From: Bacillus niameyensis
Lineage (GTDB): Bacteria > Bacillota > Bacilli > Bacillales > Bacillaceae_C
Direction: 5' to 3'
DNA: 64,000 nucleotides
Assembly (NCBI RefSeq): GCF_001375535.1
Contig: NZ_LN831197.1
Location: 4,089,823-4,153,822, forward strand
This document shows positions 26,513 to 52,324 of the stretch, one piece after another. The position numbers and the translations under genes are program-made. How positions within the stretch are numbered: the first letter of the stretch is position 1; each line of letters begins with the position of its first letter. Under the pieces are notes generated by a model. The model did not search any database, was not told where the DNA came from, and saw nothing but the letters and a program-made list of their open reading frames with translations.

Positions 26513-27517
26513 ATGTTTTTCAAAGGAAAAAAAATATTAATTATTGGTGGAACGGGGACGATTGGGCGAAGGATTATGGAAAGAGTTCTTGAGGAAGAAC
26601 CTGAGGTCGTTCGAATTTTTAGTCGAGATGAACATAAACAATTTACTATGCAAAGCAAATGGAATAACAATCGAAAGTTGCGGTTTTTAATTGGCGATGT
26701 CCGGATGTATGATCGCGTTTATAGTGCGATGGAGGATATTGATTATGTCTTTCATACTGCGGCGATGAAACATGTATCCTTTTGCGAATATAACCCTTAT
26801 GAGGCGGTTTTAACAAATATTGTCGGAACCCATAACGTTATAAAAGCAGCGATTGCACAAAAAGTAAAAAAGGTAGTTTTTACGAGTACAGATAAAGCTA
26901 TTTCTCCAACAAATAATTACGGCGCGACAAAACTGACCGCGGAAAAGCTGATTACGTCGGCAGAATTATCGAAAGGGTCGGCAAAGACGATTTTTGCGAG
27001 TGTTCGCTTCGGAAATGTAATGGGATCGCGAGGATCTGTTATTCCGCTATTTAAAGAGCAAATTATCGAGGGTAAAGAAATTACTGTTACAGACAAACAG
27101 ATGAGTCGATTCATGATGACTGTTCAACAAGCTGCATCATTAACGATCCAAGCAATGAAATTAGCGGTAGGCGGGGAGACTTTCATCTTAAAAATGCCGG
27201 TCATCTCTTTAAGCGATTTAGTAGAAGTGATGATCGAGGAAGTAGGCGAAAAGTACAATATCCCTCTGGAAGAAATCAAAATTAAGGAAATTGGTTTACG
27301 GCCTGGAGAGAAGAAGTATGAAGAGTTAATGACATATGATGAATCTCTCCATGCATTTGAATTACCGCAAATGTTTGTCATCCCAGGGCCTTTTCTTTCG
27401 ATATTACCCTATGAGAATAGCAAAAAAGCTACACCAGGCACATATCAATCAGGCGATCAGCAACCGATTACGAAGGAAGAACTACGATTTTTTATAAAAG
27501 GAGAAAATTTGATTTGA
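26513..27517 (+). CDS. UDP-GlcNAc 4,6-dehydratase-type SDR (PseB-like)
   Basis: 334 residues. NAD-binding IIGGTGTIGRRIM at the N-terminus, then FHTAAMKHVSFCEYNPYEAV, STDKAISPTNNYGATK (YxxxK catalytic pair) and FGNVMGSRGSVIPLFKEQI. These are hallmarks of the FlaA1/PseB/CapD short family. In the pseudaminic acid pathway PseB makes the 4-keto-6-deoxy sugar from UDP-GlcNAc. All other Pse enzymes follow in the same operon, which supports that role. B. subtilis sps lacks this gene as I recall. Confidence 0.85.
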   Translation: MFFKGKKILIIGGTGTIGRRIMERVLEEEPEVVRIFSRDEHKQFTMQSKWNNNRKLRFLIGDVRMYDRVYSAMEDIDYVFHTAAMKHVSFCEYNPYEAVLTNIVGTHNVIKAAIAQKVKKVVFTSTDKAISPTNNYGATKLTAEKLITSAELSKGSAKTIFASVRFGNVMGSRGSVIPLFKEQIIEGKEITVTDKQMSRFMMTVQQAASLTIQAMKLAVGGETFILKMPVISLSDLVEVMIEEVGEKYNIPLEEIKIKEIGLRPGEKKYEELMTYDESLHAFELPQMFVIPGPFLSILPYENSKKATPGTYQSGDQQPITKEELRFFIKGENLI

Positions 27518-44825: not shown

Positions 44826-44854
44826 TTGACAATGATTAAAGGAGGTGTTATTTT
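44826..44854 (+). promoter_or_regulatory. Sigma-A promoter of the lasso-peptide operon
   Basis: TTGACA (44826-44831), 17-nt spacer, TATTTT (44849-44854). The expected start of transcription is near 44861, just before the 16-bp palindrome. Confidence 0.75.
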
Positions 44855-44867
44855 TTTATATATTAGT

Positions 44868-44883
44868 GTTCTTTATAAAGAAC
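44868..44883. promoter_or_regulatory. SinR-like operator 1, lasso promoter
   Basis: GTTCTTTATAAAGAAC, a perfect 16-bp palindrome at about +8 to +23. It is identical to the site in the eps promoter at 52236. Each half matches the SinR half-site GTTCTYT. Confidence 0.75.
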
Positions 44884-44950
44884 CTAAATAACTTTTTAAA
44901 GAAAAATAAAAAATACATAGTTTTTAAAAATAATGTATTAAGTTATAACC

Positions 44951-44974
44951 TTTTGTTCTTTAATAAGAACAAAA
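44951..44974. promoter_or_regulatory. SinR-like operator 2 / leader hairpin, lasso operon
   Basis: The core GTTCTTTAATAAGAAC (44955-44970) is extended by flanking TTTT/AAAA, giving 10-bp perfect arms. It lies 16 nt before the lasso cyclase start and could also fold in RNA close to the ribosome binding site GAGGGAGGGAG. Confidence 0.6.
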
Positions 44975-44990
44975 ACGAGGGAGGGAGAAC

Positions 44991-46925
44991 ATGAGTGCAA
45001 TCGTTGGAATATATCATCGAAACGGTGAAACTATAACCGTTGAACATAGTCAGGGAATGATGACAGCATTGGGAAAATTCCCTGCTGATGACATTCAGAC
45101 ATGGCAAAAAGGTAATTTGTTTCTCGGCTGCCACGCTCAATGGATGACTCCCGAATCAATTGGAGAAACACTTCCATTCTATGATTATATGAGGCAACTT
45201 GCTATTACCGCAGATGCGATTATTGATAATCGGAATGAATTATTTGAAAAACTGCAAGTTGAGTATGAAGATCGAGAACACATGACAGACAGTCAGTTGA
45301 TTTTGCTTGCTTACTATAAATGGGGTGAGGAAACACCGAAACATTTAGTTGGCGACTTCGCTTTTATGATTTGGGATGAGAAAGAGCGAAGACTGTTTGG
45401 AGCACGGGATTATTCTGGAACACGTACTCTTTATTTTTTTCGTAACCAAGAAAAATATGCTTTTAGTACGGTTATGAAGCCTTTGCTTTCTTTACCCTAT
45501 GTATCGAATGAGCTAAGTAAACAATGGCTTGCTGAATTTCTTGCCAATCCATTAATGTTTGATTCGCTTGAGCCAGCTTCAACTGTTTATCGTCAAATAG
45601 AACAAATTCCACCATCACATTCGGTAACTGTAACAGATTCTTCGATTTATTTTTCAAGATACAGCACTTTACCAGAGGGAAAGCAACTAAAGTTAAAATC
45701 AGATGCAGAATATACAGAAGCTTTTCAAGATGTATTTCAAAGAGCGGTGAATGATCGCCTGCGGACACATCATCAAGTCGGTGCTCATTTAAGTGGCGGG
45801 CTAGACTCCTCGTCGGTATCTAGTTTCGCAGCTAAAACATTAAGGAAGAAAAATCAACCATTACATACATTCAGTTATGTTCCAGTTGATGATTTCATTG
45901 ATTGGACTCCTAAAAGTCGAATTGCCAATGAAAGGCCCCAAGTAGAATCGATTGTACAATATGTTGGCAATATATCTCCAAATTATTTAAGTTTTCCTGA
46001 GAGGAATTCTTATTTGGAAATTGATGATTGGATAGAGAAAATGGAAATGCCCTATAAATATTTTGAAAATACATTTTGGTTAAAGGGTGTTTATGAAGAG
46101 GCAAGGAAAAAGAGTGTTGGCATTTTATTAACTGGACAGCGAGGGAATTGGTCGATCTCTTGGGGCCCAGTGATGGATTATTATGCATTGTTGTTAAAAA
46201 AAATGAAATGGCTCCGTCTTAATCAGGAAATGCTGCAATATTGCTTCAATATTGGATCTGGTCGAAAGAAAGTGTTAACAGCTGTTACGAGAAAGGCCTT
46301 CCCTCTCTTATTTCAACAACAAATTTCAAAGGAAGATGACTTTCCAATATTTATTCATCCTGATCTTGCATCAGACACAATGGTATTTGAGAAATTACGG
46401 GATCATGGAATTGACCCAAGGGGAAGGATCGATTCAAATTCCTATAAAATTAGAATGCGTCAGTATCAACAATTGTATTATTGGAACACAGTTGGAACTT
46501 ATGAAGCAAAGCTAGGGCTACATTACGGCATTGTAAGTCGTGATCCAACTAATGATTTGAGAGTCGTTCAGTTTTGTTTATCGCTTCCTGAGGAGCAATA
46601 TGTTCAAAACGGTTTTGGGCGATCACTCGTTAGAAGAGCGACAGAAGGCTATTTACCAGATGATATTCGCTTGAACTTTAAAACAAAGGGAGTTCAAGGT
46701 GCAGACGGGGTTCATCGGATGAAAGTAAATTGGGATGAGTACATTGCTGAATTAGAAAAACTTCCGAAAGATCCCAACCTTCAGGAGTTAGTGGATATGG
46801 ATGTGATCAAAAATTGCCTCACTGTTTTGAAAGCAGAACCTAAGCCAAACCTCGTCTTTGAATTTGAAACGAAAGTGTTAATGAGATGCCTGATTTTAAG
46901 TCGCTTTATGAAATCCTTCACTTGA
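44991..46925 (+). CDS. Lasso peptide cyclase 1 (asparagine synthetase-like C protein)
   Basis: 644 residues, ATG after GAGGGAGGGAG. The N-terminal glutaminase-like domain lacks the catalytic Cys2 (MSAIVGIY), as in lasso C proteins, which do not need glutamine. The C-terminal ATP-pyrophosphatase domain has the PP-loop SGGLDSSS (~residue 267), HTFSYVP and EMPYKYFENTFWLKG. Lasso cyclases adenylate the ring Asp/Glu and close the macrolactam with the core N-terminus. It is the first gene of the operon and is strongly similar to cyclase 2, indicating duplication of a C-A cassette. Confidence 0.9.
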   Translation: MSAIVGIYHRNGETITVEHSQGMMTALGKFPADDIQTWQKGNLFLGCHAQWMTPESIGETLPFYDYMRQLAITADAIIDNRNELFEKLQVEYEDREHMTDSQLILLAYYKWGEETPKHLVGDFAFMIWDEKERRLFGARDYSGTRTLYFFRNQEKYAFSTVMKPLLSLPYVSNELSKQWLAEFLANPLMFDSLEPASTVYRQIEQIPPSHSVTVTDSSIYFSRYSTLPEGKQLKLKSDAEYTEAFQDVFQRAVNDRLRTHHQVGAHLSGGLDSSSVSSFAAKTLRKKNQPLHTFSYVPVDDFIDWTPKSRIANERPQVESIVQYVGNISPNYLSFPERNSYLEIDDWIEKMEMPYKYFENTFWLKGVYEEARKKSVGILLTGQRGNWSISWGPVMDYYALLLKKMKWLRLNQEMLQYCFNIGSGRKKVLTAVTRKAFPLLFQQQISKEDDFPIFIHPDLASDTMVFEKLRDHGIDPRGRIDSNSYKIRMRQYQQLYYWNTVGTYEAKLGLHYGIVSRDPTNDLRVVQFCLSLPEEQYVQNGFGRSLVRRATEGYLPDDIRLNFKTKGVQGADGVHRMKVNWDEYIAELEKLPKDPNLQELVDMDVIKNCLTVLKAEPKPNLVFEFETKVLMRCLILSRFMKSFT

Positions 46926-46939
46926 GAGGAGGTGAGACG

Positions 46940-47077
46940 ATGAAGAAAAATTGGCTGAAACCGGAGTTGGAAGTACTTAATGTCACCATGACGATGGCCG
47001 GACCCGGAATAAAAACACCGGATGCTGTCCAACCAGATCCTGATGCAAATGACCATGATGTGGTTCATTACAGTTAA
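46940..47077 (+). CDS. Lasso peptide precursor A1 (paeninodin-like)
   Basis: 45 residues, ATG 6 nt after GAGGAGGTGAG. Leader MKKNWLKPELEVLNVTMTM (19 residues) with the KPxLEVL recognition motif and Thr at -2. The 26-residue core begins AGPGIKTPD, so Ala1-Asp9 would form the nine-membered ring. It continues AVQPDPDANDHDVVHYS and ends in Ser. I recall paeninodin as beginning AGPGTSTPDAFQPDPD and ending in a phosphorylated Ser, so this is a close relative with a longer tail. It lies 14 nt after cyclase 1. Confidence 0.92.
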   Translation: MKKNWLKPELEVLNVTMTMAGPGIKTPDAVQPDPDANDHDVVHYS

Positions 47078-47101
47078 TCCAGAACACGACAGTAAACGGC
47101 T

Positions 47102-47129
47102 GCCCTTATGCAAATAACAGTATAAGGGC
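47102..47129 (+). promoter_or_regulatory. Hairpin downstream of precursor A1
   Basis: GCCCTTAT (47102-47109) / ATAAGGGC (47122-47129), then CCTTCTAAAAAA. There is no T-run, so it is likely an RNA-stability or attenuation hairpin. The same stem recurs after precursor A2. Confidence 0.7.
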
Positions 47130-47161
47130 CTTCTAAAAAATGATATTGAGAGGGTGAGAAC

Positions 47162-49111
47162 TTGAGTGCGATCATGGGAATCTTGCAGTTTCAGCAAAAT
47201 CAAACTTTGGAGCAGGGGTATCAACTCTTAAAGGCATATGATCAATTCCCTTTCGATTATACAGAAACGTGGAAAAACGAAAATGTCTTTTTTGGCTGTC
47301 ACGCGCAACGGATCACCCCTGAATCCATTCATGAACGTTTACCCTTTTATGACTATGAGCGAAAGCTCGCCATTACAGCGGATGCGATTATAGATAATCG
47401 CGAGGAATTATTTGAACGATTAAAGGTTGCTTATGGGGATCGTAAAACGATAACAGATAGTGAGTTGATTCTTCGAGCCTATTTAAAATGGGGAAAGCAC
47501 ACTCCGAATTATTTGCTTGGTGATTTTGCCTTTATGATTTGGGATGAACGAAAACAAACACTATTTGGTGCAAGAGATTTTTCTGGGGCTCGGACTCTTT
47601 ATTATTTTAAAAATGATGTCTACTTTGCTTTTTCAACAATCATCGAACCTTTATTTCGTATGCCTTTGATCGAGAAACGTCTTAATGAAGCCTGGTTAGC
47701 AGAGTTTTTAGTCATTCCAACGATCGTAGAAAGTGCTGATGTCCACCATACTCCATATGAAAAGATTTATCAGCTTCCGCCAGCGCATAGTTTATTGATC
47801 AAGTCTGGGAATGTTTCAATAGAAAGATATTGGCAATTGGGATCAATAGAGCCTTTGCGGCTAAAAAATGACTGGGAGTATCAGGAAGCCTTCTATGATG
47901 TTTTCAACCGAGCAGTTAAAGAAAGAATCCGAACAGATGGTATTGTTGGATCTCATTTAAGTGGTGGATTAGACTCAGGGTCTGTTGTTAGTTTTGCAGC
48001 AGAAGCACTTCGCGAAGAAAATAAACAATTACATACATTTAGCTATATACCAGAAGAAGATTTTACAGATTGGACACCAGCATATTACATCGCCAATGAA
48101 AAGTCCTTTATCGAAGAGACGGTTCGGTATGTGGGAAATGTCATTCCTCATTACTTGGATTTCCGAGGAAAAGATCCTTATTCAGAGGTGGATGATTTTC
48201 TAGAAATCATGGAAATGCCCTATAAATTCTTTGAAAATTCCTTTTGGTTAAAAGGAATTAATGAGGTAGCTCATAGACAGGAAGTTAAAATATTATTAAA
48301 CGGTTCTAGAGGAAACCATTCAATTTCATGGGGAACTTGGCAATTAAACTTGGACTATTATTCTACCCTTTTAAAAAGAATGAGGTTTATTCATCTTAAT
48401 CAAGAGCTTAATCAATACTGTCGGAATTTTCGTACAGGTAAAAGGATTATGTTACCAATCATCGCAAAGAATACATTTAATAGACTTGTTTCAAAAGGCG
48501 ATGATCCTGACAAGTCTTTATCGATGATTCATCCTGATTTTGCATACAAAACAGATGTTTATGAGCGGCTACAACAGTTGGGTATGAATGGAAATTATGG
48601 GAGCGATTTGAATAGATATCGTAAGCAGCATTATAACGAACCCTATTTTTGGAATAAAAGTGGAACAGCAACAACGAAATTATCTTTACGCTATGCTTTA
48701 TGGGATCGTGATCCAACAAATGATTTGCGTGTCATTTTATTTTGTTTATCTCTTCCAGAAGAACAATATGTTAAAGCCGGAATGGAGCGCTCGTTTTTAA
48801 GAAGAGCAACGAAGAACATCCTCCCAGATAAAGTTAGATATAATCACCGGATACGTGGTATTCAAGGTGCTGATACAATCCACAGAATGAAGCGGCATTG
48901 GCAAGCTTTTTTAAGTGAATTGCAAAAAATGAAGAATGATTGTGTATTAACTGAGTTTATTCATAGAGAAGTACTTGAAAACGCTCTTGCGAAGATCGAT
49001 AACGAACCTGACCCATCCCTCATTTGGAAGAATGAATTTAAAATTTTGACACGCAGTTATATCGTGCAACGTTTTCTTCAGAAAAATTTTGTAATGGAGG
49101 AGGTGAAATAA
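47162..49111 (+). CDS. Lasso peptide cyclase 2 (asparagine synthetase-like C protein)
   Basis: 649 residues, TTG start after GAGGGTGAG. Same architecture as cyclase 1: MSAIMGIL without Cys2, ITADAIIDNREELFERL, LLGDFAFMIWDERKQTLFGARDFSG, PP-loop SGGLDSGS (~residue 267), EMPYKFFENSFWLKG and RDPTNDLRVI. It probably pairs with precursor A2 or shares both substrates. Divergence from cyclase 1 is spread along the whole protein, so the duplication is not recent. Confidence 0.9.
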   Translation: MSAIMGILQFQQNQTLEQGYQLLKAYDQFPFDYTETWKNENVFFGCHAQRITPESIHERLPFYDYERKLAITADAIIDNREELFERLKVAYGDRKTITDSELILRAYLKWGKHTPNYLLGDFAFMIWDERKQTLFGARDFSGARTLYYFKNDVYFAFSTIIEPLFRMPLIEKRLNEAWLAEFLVIPTIVESADVHHTPYEKIYQLPPAHSLLIKSGNVSIERYWQLGSIEPLRLKNDWEYQEAFYDVFNRAVKERIRTDGIVGSHLSGGLDSGSVVSFAAEALREENKQLHTFSYIPEEDFTDWTPAYYIANEKSFIEETVRYVGNVIPHYLDFRGKDPYSEVDDFLEIMEMPYKFFENSFWLKGINEVAHRQEVKILLNGSRGNHSISWGTWQLNLDYYSTLLKRMRFIHLNQELNQYCRNFRTGKRIMLPIIAKNTFNRLVSKGDDPDKSLSMIHPDFAYKTDVYERLQQLGMNGNYGSDLNRYRKQHYNEPYFWNKSGTATTKLSLRYALWDRDPTNDLRVILFCLSLPEEQYVKAGMERSFLRRATKNILPDKVRYNHRIRGIQGADTIHRMKRHWQAFLSELQKMKNDCVLTEFIHREVLENALAKIDNEPDPSLIWKNEFKILTRSYIVQRFLQKNFVMEEVK

Positions 49112-49112
49112 A

Positions 49113-49280
49113 ATGAAACGAATATGGCGGCAACCAATATTGGAAGTTTTGGATATTAGTATGACGATGAATGGTCCCGGGAATGCCAATGCCGATTGTT
49201 TTGATGTATCTGAGGGAAAACACGAAACTCATCCTGGGCAATCAAATGCCAGCTGTTTAAAAAATGGATTTGATAGCTAA
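49113..49280 (+). CDS. Lasso peptide precursor A2, long core with Asn1 and two Cys
   Basis: 55 residues, ATG after GGAGGAGGTG, one base after the cyclase 2 stop. Leader MKRIWRQPILEVLDISMTM (19 residues) has the same QPxLEVL/MTM signature as A1, with Thr at -2. The predicted 36-residue core starts NGPGNANADC: Asn1 would supply the amine and Asp9 the acid of a nine-membered ring. Cys10 and Cys29 could form a disulphide and the last residues are NGFDS, ending in Ser as in A1. Asn at position 1 and this length are unusual for the class. It was too short for automatic calling by size but is well supported by context. Confidence 0.88.
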   Translation: MKRIWRQPILEVLDISMTMNGPGNANADCFDVSEGKHETHPGQSNASCLKNGFDS

Positions 49281-49289
49281 TGAATTGAA

Positions 49290-49310
49290 GCCCTTATAAA
49301 TTATAAGGGC
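49290..49310 (+). promoter_or_regulatory. Hairpin downstream of precursor A2
   Basis: GCCCTTATAA / TTATAAGGGC, followed by CTCATAAAAA. The stem is identical to the one after A1, without a T-run. It separates the precursor from the kinase gene. Confidence 0.7.
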
Positions 49311-49339
49311 CTCATAAAAATATTACCTTGGGGGAAAAA

Positions 49340-50263
49340 ATGGCTATAACATTAAAAAAGATCGTCTATAAAGCTTTTGGTTTACACGTCCAAAGTGACG
49401 TCCCCTTGCCCGAGTTACCACAGATCATGGGACTAGGGGAGGATGTCGATATTGTTATCCAGACGAAGGACTTAACTGATTTATGGAATGACTGTGCTGG
49501 ATCTTCCCCTTATTTTGCTATGAAAGGAAACATGATTTTGTTTCACATTCCTGGAGTAGCCATTTACTGTATTGAGGATGGGATGAAAATTTTTGTTTCT
49601 CCAATGAAAAATGCCCACGCGGATCAAATTCGCCTTTATATTCTTGGTTCTTGTATGGGTGGCTTATTACTTCAAAGGAGGGTTTTGCCATTACATGGAA
49701 GTGCAATTGCTATTAATGGTAAGGCATATGCAATTGTTGGCGAATCCGGTGCAGGTAAGTCGACTCTGGCAGCGGCATTTTTACAAAAAGGTTATCCCTT
49801 ATTAAGCGATGATGTTATCCCCATTACACTATCAGAAGAAACTTTCCCGATCGTCACGCCTGCTTATCCTCAGCAAAAGCTATGGCAGGAAAGTTTGGAT
49901 GCCTTTGGAATCGAGTCAAAGGGATACCGGCCCATTATTCAGCGAGAGACAAAATTCGCGATCCCTGTTTCAGCGCAATTTTCAACGTCGACCTTTCCAC
50001 TCGCAGGTGTGTTCGAATTAGTGAAAACCGAAGGCGATCAACCTAGTATAGAACCGATCTTGCATTTGCAACGGTTGCATACTTTGTTTCAACACACTTA
50101 TCGCAATTTTTTACTGAATCATCTTAAATTAAGAGAATGGCATTTTCAAATCACTGCCGCTATTGCGAACCAAACTCAACTTTATCGAATACAGCGTCCA
50201 ATTGATCGGTTTACTGCTCATGACTTAACTGCGATGATTTTAGAGACATTAAATAAGGAGTGA
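49340..50263 (+). CDS. Lasso peptide kinase (HPr kinase-like, K protein)
   Basis: 307 residues from ATG 49340 after TTGGGGG. HprK-like fold: LPLHGSAIAINGKAYAIVGESGAGKSTLAAAFL with P-loop GESGAGKST (~134-142), then PLLSDDVIPI (catalytic Asp pair) and PAYPQQKLW. In paeninodin-type clusters this kinase phosphorylates the C-terminal Ser of the precursor. Both A1 and A2 end in Ser, which fits. A catabolite-control role of true HPr kinase is excluded by context and by the missing HprK N-terminal domain. Confidence 0.9.
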   Translation: MAITLKKIVYKAFGLHVQSDVPLPELPQIMGLGEDVDIVIQTKDLTDLWNDCAGSSPYFAMKGNMILFHIPGVAIYCIEDGMKIFVSPMKNAHADQIRLYILGSCMGGLLLQRRVLPLHGSAIAINGKAYAIVGESGAGKSTLAAAFLQKGYPLLSDDVIPITLSEETFPIVTPAYPQQKLWQESLDAFGIESKGYRPIIQRETKFAIPVSAQFSTSTFPLAGVFELVKTEGDQPSIEPILHLQRLHTLFQHTYRNFLLNHLKLREWHFQITAAIANQTQLYRIQRPIDRFTAHDLTAMILETLNKE

Positions 50264-50270
50264 AAAATGG

Positions 50271-50570
50271 ATGATTACAAAACAAAATATTTCATTGAGC
50301 GATTATGTTGTCCAGTCAGAAGGAAATATTGTGAGTGACATGGGCAGTGAGAAAGTAATGCTTAGCATTCATAATGGAAAATATTATAATTTAGGTGAAA
50401 TCGGCGGAGGAATTTGGGATCTAATGAAAGAGCCAATCCAAGTAGAGAAAATGGTGAGTACTCTTACTTCTAGTTATCTCGTTGAAAAACAGGAATGTGA
50501 AGAACATGTACTTTCCTTTTTAACTCATTTATTAGAAGAACAGTTAATTCAGATTGCTTCCAAAGAGTAG
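50271..50570 (+). CDS. Lasso peptide B1 protein (PqqD-like leader recognition element)
   Basis: 99 residues. PqqD/RRE winged-helix fold: ISLSDYVVQSEGNIVSDMGSEKVMLSIHNGKYYNLGEIGGGIWDLM is typical of B1 proteins. It binds the leader (KPxLEVL region) and presents the precursor to the B2 peptidase and the cyclase. It lies 7 nt after the kinase gene. Confidence 0.92.
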   Translation: MITKQNISLSDYVVQSEGNIVSDMGSEKVMLSIHNGKYYNLGEIGGGIWDLMKEPIQVEKMVSTLTSSYLVEKQECEEHVLSFLTHLLEEQLIQIASKE

Positions 50571-50579
50571 GGGAACATA

Positions 50580-51032
50580 ATGATTTTGTCAAAATTCATG
50601 ACCATTTTTAAAACACATCCGAAAACGATCGTCCTTTTTCTGGAAGCATATATGTTTCTGGGCTGGGCACGAATTCTAAAAAAAGTCCCATTTCAAAAAG
50701 TGGCGCCAATGTTAGGCGATCATATGAATGAAACGCCTTACTATAGTGAAGATAACAATACGAGAACGATTAAAAATATTTCAAATGCCATTCAAATTAT
50801 GAGCAAATACACCTTTTGGGAGAGCCAATGTTTAGTTAGAGCCATGGCTGGAATGAAAATGTTGGAAAGGCGTGGTATTGAGAGTACTCTTTATCTAGGT
50901 ACGGCGAGAGATGAAGAAGGAAAGATGATTGCTCATGCATGGTTACGAAGTGGATCTTATTATATTTCTGGATCAGAGGGAATGGAAAAGTTTACGACCG
51001 TCAGTATGTTTGCGAAAAGAGATGTCATGTGA
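50580..51032 (+). CDS. Lasso peptide B2 leader peptidase (transglutaminase-like)
   Basis: 150 residues. Cysteine protease of the transglutaminase-like family: WESQCLVRAMAGMKMLERRGIESTLYLG with the catalytic Cys (~83) and IAHAWLRSG with the catalytic His (~119). The third acid of the usual Cys-His-Asp triad is not obvious in the short C-terminal part (SYYISGSEG). It removes the leader after the Thr(-2)-Met sequence. Its stop lies 12 nt before the N gene. Confidence 0.9.
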   Translation: MILSKFMTIFKTHPKTIVLFLEAYMFLGWARILKKVPFQKVAPMLGDHMNETPYYSEDNNTRTIKNISNAIQIMSKYTFWESQCLVRAMAGMKMLERRGIESTLYLGTARDEEGKMIAHAWLRSGSYYISGSEGMEKFTTVSMFAKRDVM

Positions 51033-51043
51033 AAGGGAAAGTT

Positions 51044-52210
51044 ATGAATAAACAAATCGAACTAAAATTGGATCAGATCCCAAGAGAATTAAAATTGATG
51101 CTTGAATGGATTCAATTAGAGAATCATCCGTCTCAAGAAAGCTACGACACAATAGACTGGGAATTATTTTTACAATTAAGTATCCACCATAGGCTTTATC
51201 CATTGTTATATACGAAAATGAAAGATTGCGAACGGATACCTGAACAAGTTCGTCTCACACTGGAAGACTTATATAAACATAATACATTTCAAATGCTTCA
51301 CCTTTCTGCGGAAATGGAGAAACTAAGTAAACTATTATTAAAAAGTAATATTCCATCGCTATTTTTGAAAGGGCCTGTTTTATCTGCAGATTTATACGGG
51401 GATATTTCAAAACGAACATCAGGTGATTTAGATATTCTGATTCCGATTAACGATTTACAAAGAGCAGAACACCTACTTGTCGAATTAGGATATAAAAAGG
51501 ATGAGTACATCCAAAGTTTATTAAACGATTGGAAGTGGAGGCATCATCATTTTACTTATTATCATCCAATTAGGCGAATTAAAGTAGAAATACATTGGCG
51601 CTTGAACCCGGCTCCAAGTAAAGAGCCAAGTTTCCAGGAGCTATGGAGCAGAAGGAGAAAAAGTTCGATTACGAATTTTCCAGTTTATATGCTTGGTTTG
51701 GAGGATCTTTTCTTTTTCTTAGTTACTCACGGTTCACGACATGGCTGGTCGCGCCTCCGTTGGTTAATGGATATTCACCAACTCATTCACAAAGAGTTGG
51801 ATTGGAGTAGGGTGTTTAAAAGGTTAAAAAAATACCAAGCAAGGCATATTGGAGGACAATCGCTTATTTTGGCTAATCAATTATTGCGAAGTACTCTGAC
51901 GAAGGAAATGCAGCCTTTAATAATAGGAAATCGCTCCAGTAAAATCGCTCAAGAAACGATCTTTTACTTAGAACAAATGGTTAATTTGCACAATGATCCG
52001 GTACCTAAAGAAGTTGCGAAATATCATGCAATGCATTTATTCTCTTTAATGTCCTTTCAACAAAAAATACTCTATTTATTAAGTACACTTCATCCTTATT
52101 ATACGGATGTTGAGACATTGCCATTACCGAATAAGCTTCATTTTCTTTACTTTCCTCTTCGTCCATTGTTATGGTTTTGGAGGAAAACTAAGAAACAGGA
52201 AATTTCTTAA
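51044..52210 (+). CDS. Nucleotidyltransferase-family protein (lasso tailoring N protein)
   Basis: 388 residues from ATG 51044 after GAAAGGG; the long upstream extension overlaps the B2 gene. NTase domain: LFLKGPVLSADLYGDISKRTSGDLDILIPINDLQRAE with the metal-binding DLDIL (~126-130), then HHHFTYYHPIRRIKVEIHWRLN and LFFFLVTHGSRHGWSRLRWLMDIHQLI, typical of the NTP_transf_5 family. Relatives sit in paeninodin- and pseudomycoidin-type clusters and are thought to add groups to the phosphorylated tail. It is the last gene of the operon and no exporter follows. Confidence 0.87.
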   Translation: MNKQIELKLDQIPRELKLMLEWIQLENHPSQESYDTIDWELFLQLSIHHRLYPLLYTKMKDCERIPEQVRLTLEDLYKHNTFQMLHLSAEMEKLSKLLLKSNIPSLFLKGPVLSADLYGDISKRTSGDLDILIPINDLQRAEHLLVELGYKKDEYIQSLLNDWKWRHHHFTYYHPIRRIKVEIHWRLNPAPSKEPSFQELWSRRRKSSITNFPVYMLGLEDLFFFLVTHGSRHGWSRLRWLMDIHQLIHKELDWSRVFKRLKKYQARHIGGQSLILANQLLRSTLTKEMQPLIIGNRSSKIAQETIFYLEQMVNLHNDPVPKEVAKYHAMHLFSLMSFQQKILYLLSTLHPYYTDVETLPLPNKLHFLYFPLRPLLWFWRKTKKQEIS

Positions 52211-52228: not shown

Positions 52229-52257
52229 TTGACTTGTTCTTTATAAAGAACTACAAT
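52229..52257 (+). promoter_or_regulatory. Sigma-A promoter of the eps operon with embedded operator
   Basis: TTGACT (52229-52234), 17-nt spacer, TACAAT (52252-52257). The spacer is filled by GTTCTTTATAAAGAAC (52236-52251), so a bound repressor would block RNA polymerase. Confidence 0.85.
52236..52251. promoter_or_regulatory. SinR-like operator in eps promoter
   Basis: A perfect 16-bp palindrome identical to the one at 44868. B. subtilis eps is repressed by SinR binding to GTTCTYT repeats, which makes SinR the natural candidate. Confidence 0.8.
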
Positions 52258-52308: not shown

Positions 52309-52324
52309 GTTCTTTATTGGGAAC
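52309..52324. promoter_or_regulatory. Second SinR-like operator, eps leader
   Basis: GTTCTTTATTGGGAAC, a degenerate copy 73 bp downstream of the first and 33 nt before epsA. The spacing (seven turns) would allow cooperative or looped binding. Confidence 0.65.

Follow-up and report, generated by a model that had tools for sequence, protein, structure and literature searches.

A paeninodin-type lasso-peptide operon with two cyclase-precursor cassettes and SinR-type operators in Bacillus niameyensis

A 64,000-nucleotide stretch of the Bacillus niameyensis genome (contig NZ_LN831197.1, positions 4,089,823 to 4,153,822; hereafter the window, whose numbering is used below) contains an operon at 44826..52210 in which two lasso-peptide cyclases (C1, C2), each followed by its own precursor (A1, A2), share a single set of a kinase (K), a leader-binding protein (B1), a leader peptidase (B2) and a nucleotidyltransferase-like protein (N). 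How did two cassettes come to stand in one operon, and what controls them? We found that C1 is preceded by two exact operators of the SinR type, and consider it probable that this two-product operon of the paeninodin type belongs to the SinR (biofilm) regulon.

Operators and genes of the operon

Concerning control, the SinR consensus is given as GTTCTYT in the available text of PMC3163267 and PMC5733473. According to the accessible part of the former, SinR binds the inverted 7-2-7 repeat in TTTGTTCTCTAAAGAGAACTTA about 10-fold more tightly than sites that are single or in tandem, with a dissociation constant of 300 nM. Two exact sites with this best-bound geometry precede C1, operator 1 (GTTCTTTATAAAGAAC, 44868..44883) and, 87 bp past it, operator 2 (GTTCTTTAATAAGAAC, 44955..44970). 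Both stand between C1 and a promoter-like site on the forward strand (44826..44854; TTGACA-17-TATTTT with TG 5' of the second hexamer), whose end lies 13 bases 5' of operator 1. The promoter-like site is a consensus match only, two such sites being found against 1.1 expected in shuffles. An inverted GTTCTYT repeat of 7-2-7 geometry near a promoter, the mark of the SinR regulon, is thus present twice before C1.

In the whole 4.68-Mb genome, GTTCTT-N4-AAGAAC occurs exactly six times: twice before C1, once each before the operon opening with a Wzz gene, before a third cyclase gene (C3) and before a SinI-like open reading frame (ORF), and once inside a coding ORF (window 26585-26600). The Wzz/chain-length protein (PF02706; 52348..53097, forward strand) is encoded by the first gene of the adjoining exopolysaccharide operon; the exact operator lies 5' of it at 52236..52251, and a weaker second site, with two mismatches to GTTCTTTNNNAAGAAC, at 52309..52324. 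A one-mismatch site was found 84 bp 5' of the start of the gene for an ABC exporter, D. We limit the claim to the exact sites and the one-mismatch site before D; of the four A/T-rich one-mismatch sites examined elsewhere in the genome, three lie within coding ORFs, and the fourth, which is intergenic, has no evident link. The genome carries sinR (L006:5541-5981) and sinI (L006:5944-6090), the SinR matching that of B. subtilis with an E value of 2.5e-41 and an identical AEKAGVAKSYLSSIERN stretch. The SinI-like small open frame, also in the sin locus (L006:5282-5413), has no clear ATG and begins about 75-90 bp past its exact operator, a possible feedback on SinR.

The gene order C1-A1-C2-A2-K-B1-B2-N, all on the forward strand, had been proposed in a first-pass annotation together with the paeninodin type; ORFs and family matches agree with both, and by these matches the operon is a lasso-peptide cluster of that type. 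C1 (44991..46925, 644 residues, SGGLDSSS; partner precursor Cys-free) and C2 (47162..49111, TTG start, 649 residues, SGGLDSGS; a member of the two-Cys clade described below) carry the two motifs noted earlier, and their best model was the lasso cyclase NF033535 (387 and 400 bits). Each scored 154 bits with the true asparagine (Asn) synthase model TIGR01536. These far higher lasso-cyclase scores speak against Asn synthetases, the possibility that the first-pass annotation had set against its own reading. The two dissimilar precursors, A1 (46940..47077, 45 residues, leader 46940-46996) and A2 (49113..49280, 55 residues, leader 49113-49169), reached 57.4 and 48.2 bits with NF033524, 'paeninodin family lasso peptide' (cut-off 27). 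In the single set of accompanying genes, B1 (50271..50570, PqqD-like, PF05402) scored 136 bits with NF033536 (cut-off 80), B2 (50580..51032, transglutaminase-like, PF13471) 104 bits with NF033537 (cut-off 33), and N (51044..52210) 211 bits with PF14907. K (49340..50263, alternative TTG start at 49328) gave sub-cut-off scores of 30-33 bits with HprK-related models, and inspection of its sequence revealed His, P-loop Lys and Asp-Asp stretches. Homologues of K, B1, B2 and N were present in 80, 75, 75 and 73, respectively, of 80 loci of relatives, a recurrence indicating that the operon is not a chance assembly. A fourth, weak cyclase match of the genome (4224707), a 630-residue ORF, looks by eye like an ordinary Asn synthetase and was set aside.

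The translations bear out leaders of 19 residues and cores of 26 and 36 residues, as annotated. The predicted A1 core, AGPGIKTPDAVQPDPDANDHDVVHYS, reads AGPGIKTPD-AVQPDPDANDHDVVHYS and would form an Ala1-Asp9 ring; that of A2, NGPGNANADCFDVSEGKHETHPGQSNASCLKNGFDS, reads NGPGNANAD-CFDVSEGKHETHPGQSNASCLKNGFDS, with a predicted Asn1-Asp9 ring and both Cys in the tail past it. Both leaders follow the plan of the PadeA family (W-x-x-P, penultimate Thr), and the leader of A3, the precursor behind C3, is alike. The C-terminal Ser of A1, A2 and A3 recurred in 168 of 170 precursors examined, and Asn1 was predicted for 29 of these 170.

Conservation of the operator and the candidate regulators

Two samples of relatives were used, and our lasso and SinI tables rest on both. 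The first consisted of the best 80 of 193 C1/C2 relatives in named genomes; cyclase pieces shorter than 1700 bp were dropped from its counts. The second came from 397 genomes drawn evenly from the order, 90 of which had a cyclase; 80 of these were given to a scan for the SinI/SinR domain. Its 80 regions came from 77 of the scanned genomes (all but G238, G283 and G440), with G460 added and G192 and G232 entering twice, and 16 loci were dropped for an identity of 97% or more to loci of the first sample.

Of 82 operon heads in the first sample, 54 had a site with no more than one mismatch in the preceding 250 bp; the site was exact at 34 heads, and 26 had at least two sites. Dinucleotide shuffles gave a mean of 0.15 heads over 20 rounds (largest 2), the 29 other permutations of the arms at most one head, and other gaps of 0-11 at most five. 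The second sample, which has no overlap with the first, had the site before 49 of 67 heads. In a motif-free dyad scan of 149 upstream regions, the commonest exact 6+6 dyad was GTTCTT-N4 (60 times), and ranks 2-6 were frames of the same palindrome. The 103 operator-bearing upstream regions fell into 82 mutually non-alignable clusters, indicating that the operator outlasts its surroundings. Taken together, the shuffles, arm permutations, gap scan and non-alignable upstream regions rule out chance palindromes. At first-sample heads with exactly two sites (at most two mismatches), the spacing was 58-166 bp, with a mean of 99. The operator was found in 19 of 26 first-sample genera with at most one mismatch and in 24 of 26 with at most two, two genus labels being doubtful. 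The cyclases of L037 (labelled Thermincola ferriacetica, a metagenome-assembled genome) and L019 (labelled Pseudomonas sp. ISL-84) cluster with those of Bacillaceae, and these entries are perhaps mis-binned or mislabelled.

Among control upstream regions of the same loci, 46 of 521 had a site, and the genes behind them were no random set. By homology to proteins of the window, 16 of these belonged to Wzz genes, 8 to CapD/GalE-like, 2 to N-like, 2 to K-like genes and 1 to a D-like gene; one more stood before a stray lasso cyclase, while 6 of one further cluster and 10 singles were unlabelled. Where the locus held an exopolysaccharide marker gene, the operator was present at 27 of 36 heads; where it held none, at 27 of 46. 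None of the 78 D genes of relatives had a site with one mismatch or fewer in 300 bp.

We then compared the operators with the SinI/SinR domain PF08671, which was found in 48/50 and 23/26 genomes of the first sample and in 79/80 of the second. Of the 133 loci from PF08671-bearing genomes, 100 had a site with one mismatch or none, against 0 of 7 loci from genomes lacking the domain (Fisher 1.0e-4); allowing two mismatches raised the former count to 116 and left the latter at 0 (Fisher 1.9e-6). Leaving out the doubtful L037 gave 0 of 6, with Fisher values of 3.6e-4 and 1.1e-5. L048 and the second loci L050, L070 and L084 were left out of this table; L125 and L134, second loci of first-sample genomes (G192, G232), were counted, so that 133 refers to loci, not genomes. 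G403, and G460 if it lacked SinR, had been forecast to be operator-free. G460 had no PF08671, and both were operator-free. In the order sample, with kinship ignored, PF08671 occurred in 88 of 90 lasso-bearing genomes vs 211 of 307 others.

Several points weigh against the reading as a SinR-controlled two-lasso operon. The Fisher values above ignore descent; corrected for it, only four independent contrasts remain, three agreeing, none opposing and one tied (p 0.25), a test that is underpowered. Sites were missing from 33 of 133 lasso loci in PF08671-bearing genomes at one mismatch, for example at three of four Peribacillus heads, and from 17 of 133 at two. PF08671 may stand for either SinI or SinR, the check for an intact SinR covering the window's genome only, and binding of SinR is itself read from the operators. 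Genome-wide, one-mismatch copies number 47 vs 41 for a reversed control; with no excess, single weak sites, that of D included, mean little alone. C2 has no operator of its own in the window. C1 and C2 both stay below the curated NF033535 cut-off of 525 bits. Finally, a second SinR-like protein (L007:1227-1571, 114 residues) is encoded in the exopolysaccharide locus between the right end of the window and C3, and might be the true regulator or a further one.

This protein carries the alternative that survives best, to which we give a small chance: that the same two-lasso operon has its palindromes read by another Xre/SinR-like regulator, for example the 114-residue protein or SlrR-type heteromers, in which case the output could be activation or a different timing. 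The protein matches B. subtilis SinR with an E value of 5.3e-25, contains a weak SinI domain and has homologues in 13 of 80 loci of relatives. It has Asn aligned to Ser33 of SinR, where SlrR has Lys, and a change at this residue may alter specificity, judging from the portion of PMC3163267 at hand. However, loci with operators greatly outnumber the 13 with a homologue, the half-site is the published SinR consensus in its best-bound 7-2-7 form (PMC3163267, same portion), and none of the seven loci from genomes without the SinI/SinR domain has a site. SinR itself is preferred, with the 114-residue protein as a possible local modulator. It is highly improbable that the palindromes are a lasso-promoter element, served by a local regulator or a hairpin and unrelated to biofilm genes: the inferred nature of SinR binding and the PF08671 genomes without a site would fit such an element, but it also stands 5' of Wzz in 19 of the 36 loci of relatives that have Wzz and 5' of the SinI-like ORF of the window's genome, and no regulator is present among the operon genes named by family matches.

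Descent of the two cassettes and an exporter gene outside the operon

C1 and C2 are 51% identical. The closest relative of C1 is the first-position cyclase of L017 (72%), and that of C2 the second-position cyclase of L016 (65%). In a tree of 101 cyclases, which included no Asn synthetase, C1 clustered with the first-position cyclases of Bacillus sp. FJAT-50079, B. aerolatus and Lederbergia wuyishanensis, and C2 with the second-position cyclases of the same three together with Bacillus dakarensis. One clade held all 24 cyclases adjoining two-Cys precursors (one change; Shimodaira-Hasegawa-like approximate likelihood-ratio test, SH-aLRT, 96). Over the whole tree, core types, assigned by pattern and in part by hand, changed 10 times vs 51.6 for shuffled labels.

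Defining a tandem pair by a second C gene starting within 1600 bp, we counted 32 tandem loci over both samples. The second precursor had exactly two Cys in all 30 readable cases, two being unread. First precursors were Cys-free in 31 of 32 reads, among them the spurious read of L148 (counted here but kept out of the 170-precursor set); that of L073 has Cys in the leader, and no valid first core contained Cys. Second cores measured 32-47 residues and first cores 22-34, apart from the spurious L148 read. Among single-cassette precursors, 94 had no Cys, 5 had one and 10 had two, while 11 were unread. In 9 of 16 second cassettes of relatives, the internal C gene had its own operator with at most one mismatch, the loci being L025, L040, L041, L043, L059, L063, L073, L080 and L089.

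Since C1 is nearest to a first-position and C2 to a second-position cyclase, and the cyclases beside two-Cys precursors form one clade, the operon is, on the cyclase tree, a union of two long-separated cassettes rather than of local duplicates. A two-Cys C-A cassette of one origin has thus come to stand second to Cys-free cassettes of several kinds. A recent duplication in place of a single C-A cassette, its cyclases being relaxed and shared, which the similar leaders and the similar hairpins after A1 and A2 might suggest, is rejected by the tree and highly improbable given the 51% identity, the separate clades each with other genera, and the fixed order, Cys-free then two-Cys, of the readable tandem loci. 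The annotation had called cassette duplication unusual. This is not supported, in view of the separate clades, the 32 tandem loci and the occurrence of at least two cyclases in 5 of 6 lasso-bearing genomes of the window's genus. It had also left open whether each product comes from its own cyclase or from shared ones. The co-segregation of cyclase clade and core type favours separate cyclases for the two precursors, with K, B1, B2 and N common to both. In two Oceanobacillus loci (L067 and L083, 10001-10696), a cyclase fragment lies just 5' of an intact C gene with a W-type core, and is perhaps a decaying first cassette.

A homologue of D was present in 77 of 80 loci of relatives, behind N in 56, behind B1/B2 in 19 and elsewhere in 2. 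None was found in the operon or the 64-kb window. The D gene of this genome (L007:12839-14632; 44-67% identical to those of relatives) is located about 25 kb downstream, directly 5' of C3, the third cyclase gene of the genome (L007:14962-16920), which is followed by A3 (MKKAWTKPQLELLEVSETK-AKWTGDSWDGFFIGRYNKPGEPDPGGSDLDS). No homologue of K, B1, B2 or N was found within the 19.8-kb stretch holding C3-A3. Relatives likewise have cassettes without B1/B2 where a complete operon stands elsewhere in the genome (L050 with L046; L084 with L058). D-C3-A3 is flanked by genes for two large proteins that look alike by eye, L007:10446-12482 on the reverse and L007:17395-19551 on the forward strand, the latter with a right-handed beta-helix domain (PF13229). 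In L025, an exact operator stands at the gene of a protein that by eye resembles these two.

Proposed control and relation to known systems

Building on what was observed directly, namely the genes, the pairing and order of the cassettes, the operators and their co-occurrence with SinI/SinR genes, we propose the following course of events. Active SinR would occupy the pair of 7-2-7 operators that separate C1 from the promoter, keeping the operon off, and would shut the adjoining exopolysaccharide operon likewise. On titration of SinR by SinI, lasso peptides, exporter and exopolysaccharide would come on together. C1 would close the Cys-free A1 between Ala1 and Asp9, and C2 would close A2 between Asn1 and Asp9, leaving a long two-Cys tail that is probably disulfide-bonded. 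K, B1, B2 and N would serve A1 and A2 and probably also A3, as C3-A3 has no set of its own nearby. K would phosphorylate the C-terminal Ser, and N may place a further group, a sugar or a nucleotidyl, there. Export would proceed in trans through D; that its gene stands outside the operon and has an operator to itself would be in keeping with selection for simultaneous expression.

The paeninodin cluster of Paenibacillus dendritiformis, reportedly described by Zhu in 2016, is said to have one precursor and one cyclase, and the A1 core resembles paeninodin. As far as the accessible text of PMC9266682 goes, that cluster shares with the operon the precursor family, C, K, B1, B2 and a Ser as kinase substrate, K-type kinases phosphorylating the C-terminal Ser. 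The window's genome differs in having two cassettes in the operon, a third elsewhere, D outside the operon, and SinR-type operators. The pseudomycoidin cluster also combines a kinase (PsmK) with a nucleotidyltransferase (PsmN), and its C-terminal Ser is phosphorylated and hexosylated; in the available part of PMC9266682 it has one product, and its regulation is not covered. The B. subtilis SinR regulon (epsA-O, tapA-sipW-tasA) shares the GTTCTYT half-site, the inverted 7-2-7 repeat, several operators per promoter and an exopolysaccharide target, whereas no lasso-peptide operon is among the targets named in the accessible text of PMC3163267 and PMC5733473.

Two features of A2 have precedents. 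Asn as ring residue 1 is known from metanodin, a gammaproteobacterial peptide reported, in the available text of PMC12670498, as the first Asn1 lasso peptide. With both Cys past the predicted ring, A2 appears class IV-like, and a tail disulfide is predicted. Felipeptins A1 and A2 are reportedly a synergistic pair. Class IV peptides (LP2006, pandonodin, felipeptins) have both Cys in the tail, and their clusters share no extra genes beyond A-D, according to the accessible part of PMC9266682.

A role in biofilms has been considered before. The available text of PMC13381572 (Nat Commun 2026) places LPP/paeninodin clusters with W-x-x-P leaders in capsular polysaccharide loci of Bacilli, the same polysaccharide location as here, states that the role of the paeninodin type is unknown, and calls a biofilm role tempting but untested. 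'SinR' occurs 0 times in its main text, and the part at hand describes neither an operator nor a two-cyclase system. Paeninodin-type clusters are also described in PMC11705953 and PMC10931772, the available portions of which contain no two-cyclase operon. Literature searches, from which subscription papers were absent, returned only an unrelated paper for SinR with lasso peptides and nothing for two-cyclase or two-precursor lasso operons; for SinR with RiPPs (ribosomally synthesized and post-translationally modified peptides), the matches listed were mostly genome reports. The parts of the operon are of known kind. As far as this literature goes, which is weak evidence of novelty, two things appear to be new: that control of the SinR type is conserved among paeninodin-type operons, and that a Cys-free and a two-Cys peptide, the latter mostly with predicted Asn1, form a fixed pair.

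The recurrent SinR-type operators point a lasso family of stated unknown role towards biofilm formation. With the operator conserved across genera, this link becomes directly testable through sinR or the two 16-bp sites. SinR control would also imply little product in planktonic culture, a hint for switching such clusters on. In the Cys-free/two-Cys pair with separate cyclases, nature provides a two-peptide system in which cyclase specificity and synergy can be studied. Further-reaching, and in our estimate rather unlikely, is the idea that paeninodin-type lassos are SinR-controlled matrix components, exported together with exopolysaccharide and held on it through a phospho-sugar placed by K and N on the C-terminal Ser, with the tandem operon encoding a fixed, co-acting pair. 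If so, a lineage-variable Cys-free lasso and a conserved two-Cys, mostly Asn1 lasso would act as kin label, matrix clip or co-acting antagonist.

Two minor observations concern the precursors. In cores such as ASTVWGPYTDEAY, the first acidic residue falls at position 10, not 9, under the penultimate-Thr rule (L035, L045, L056, L059, L073, L080, L108, L118, L126, L135, L136, L140, L143 and some others), which would mean either a 10-residue ring or cleavage one residue later. Directly 3' of A1 and A2, on the forward strand, are two CCCTTAT hairpins with similar stems and no T run (47103..47128, whole-spacer z -3.07; 49290..49310, whole-spacer z -1.80), which are perhaps 3' stabilisers that lift precursor over downstream mRNA.

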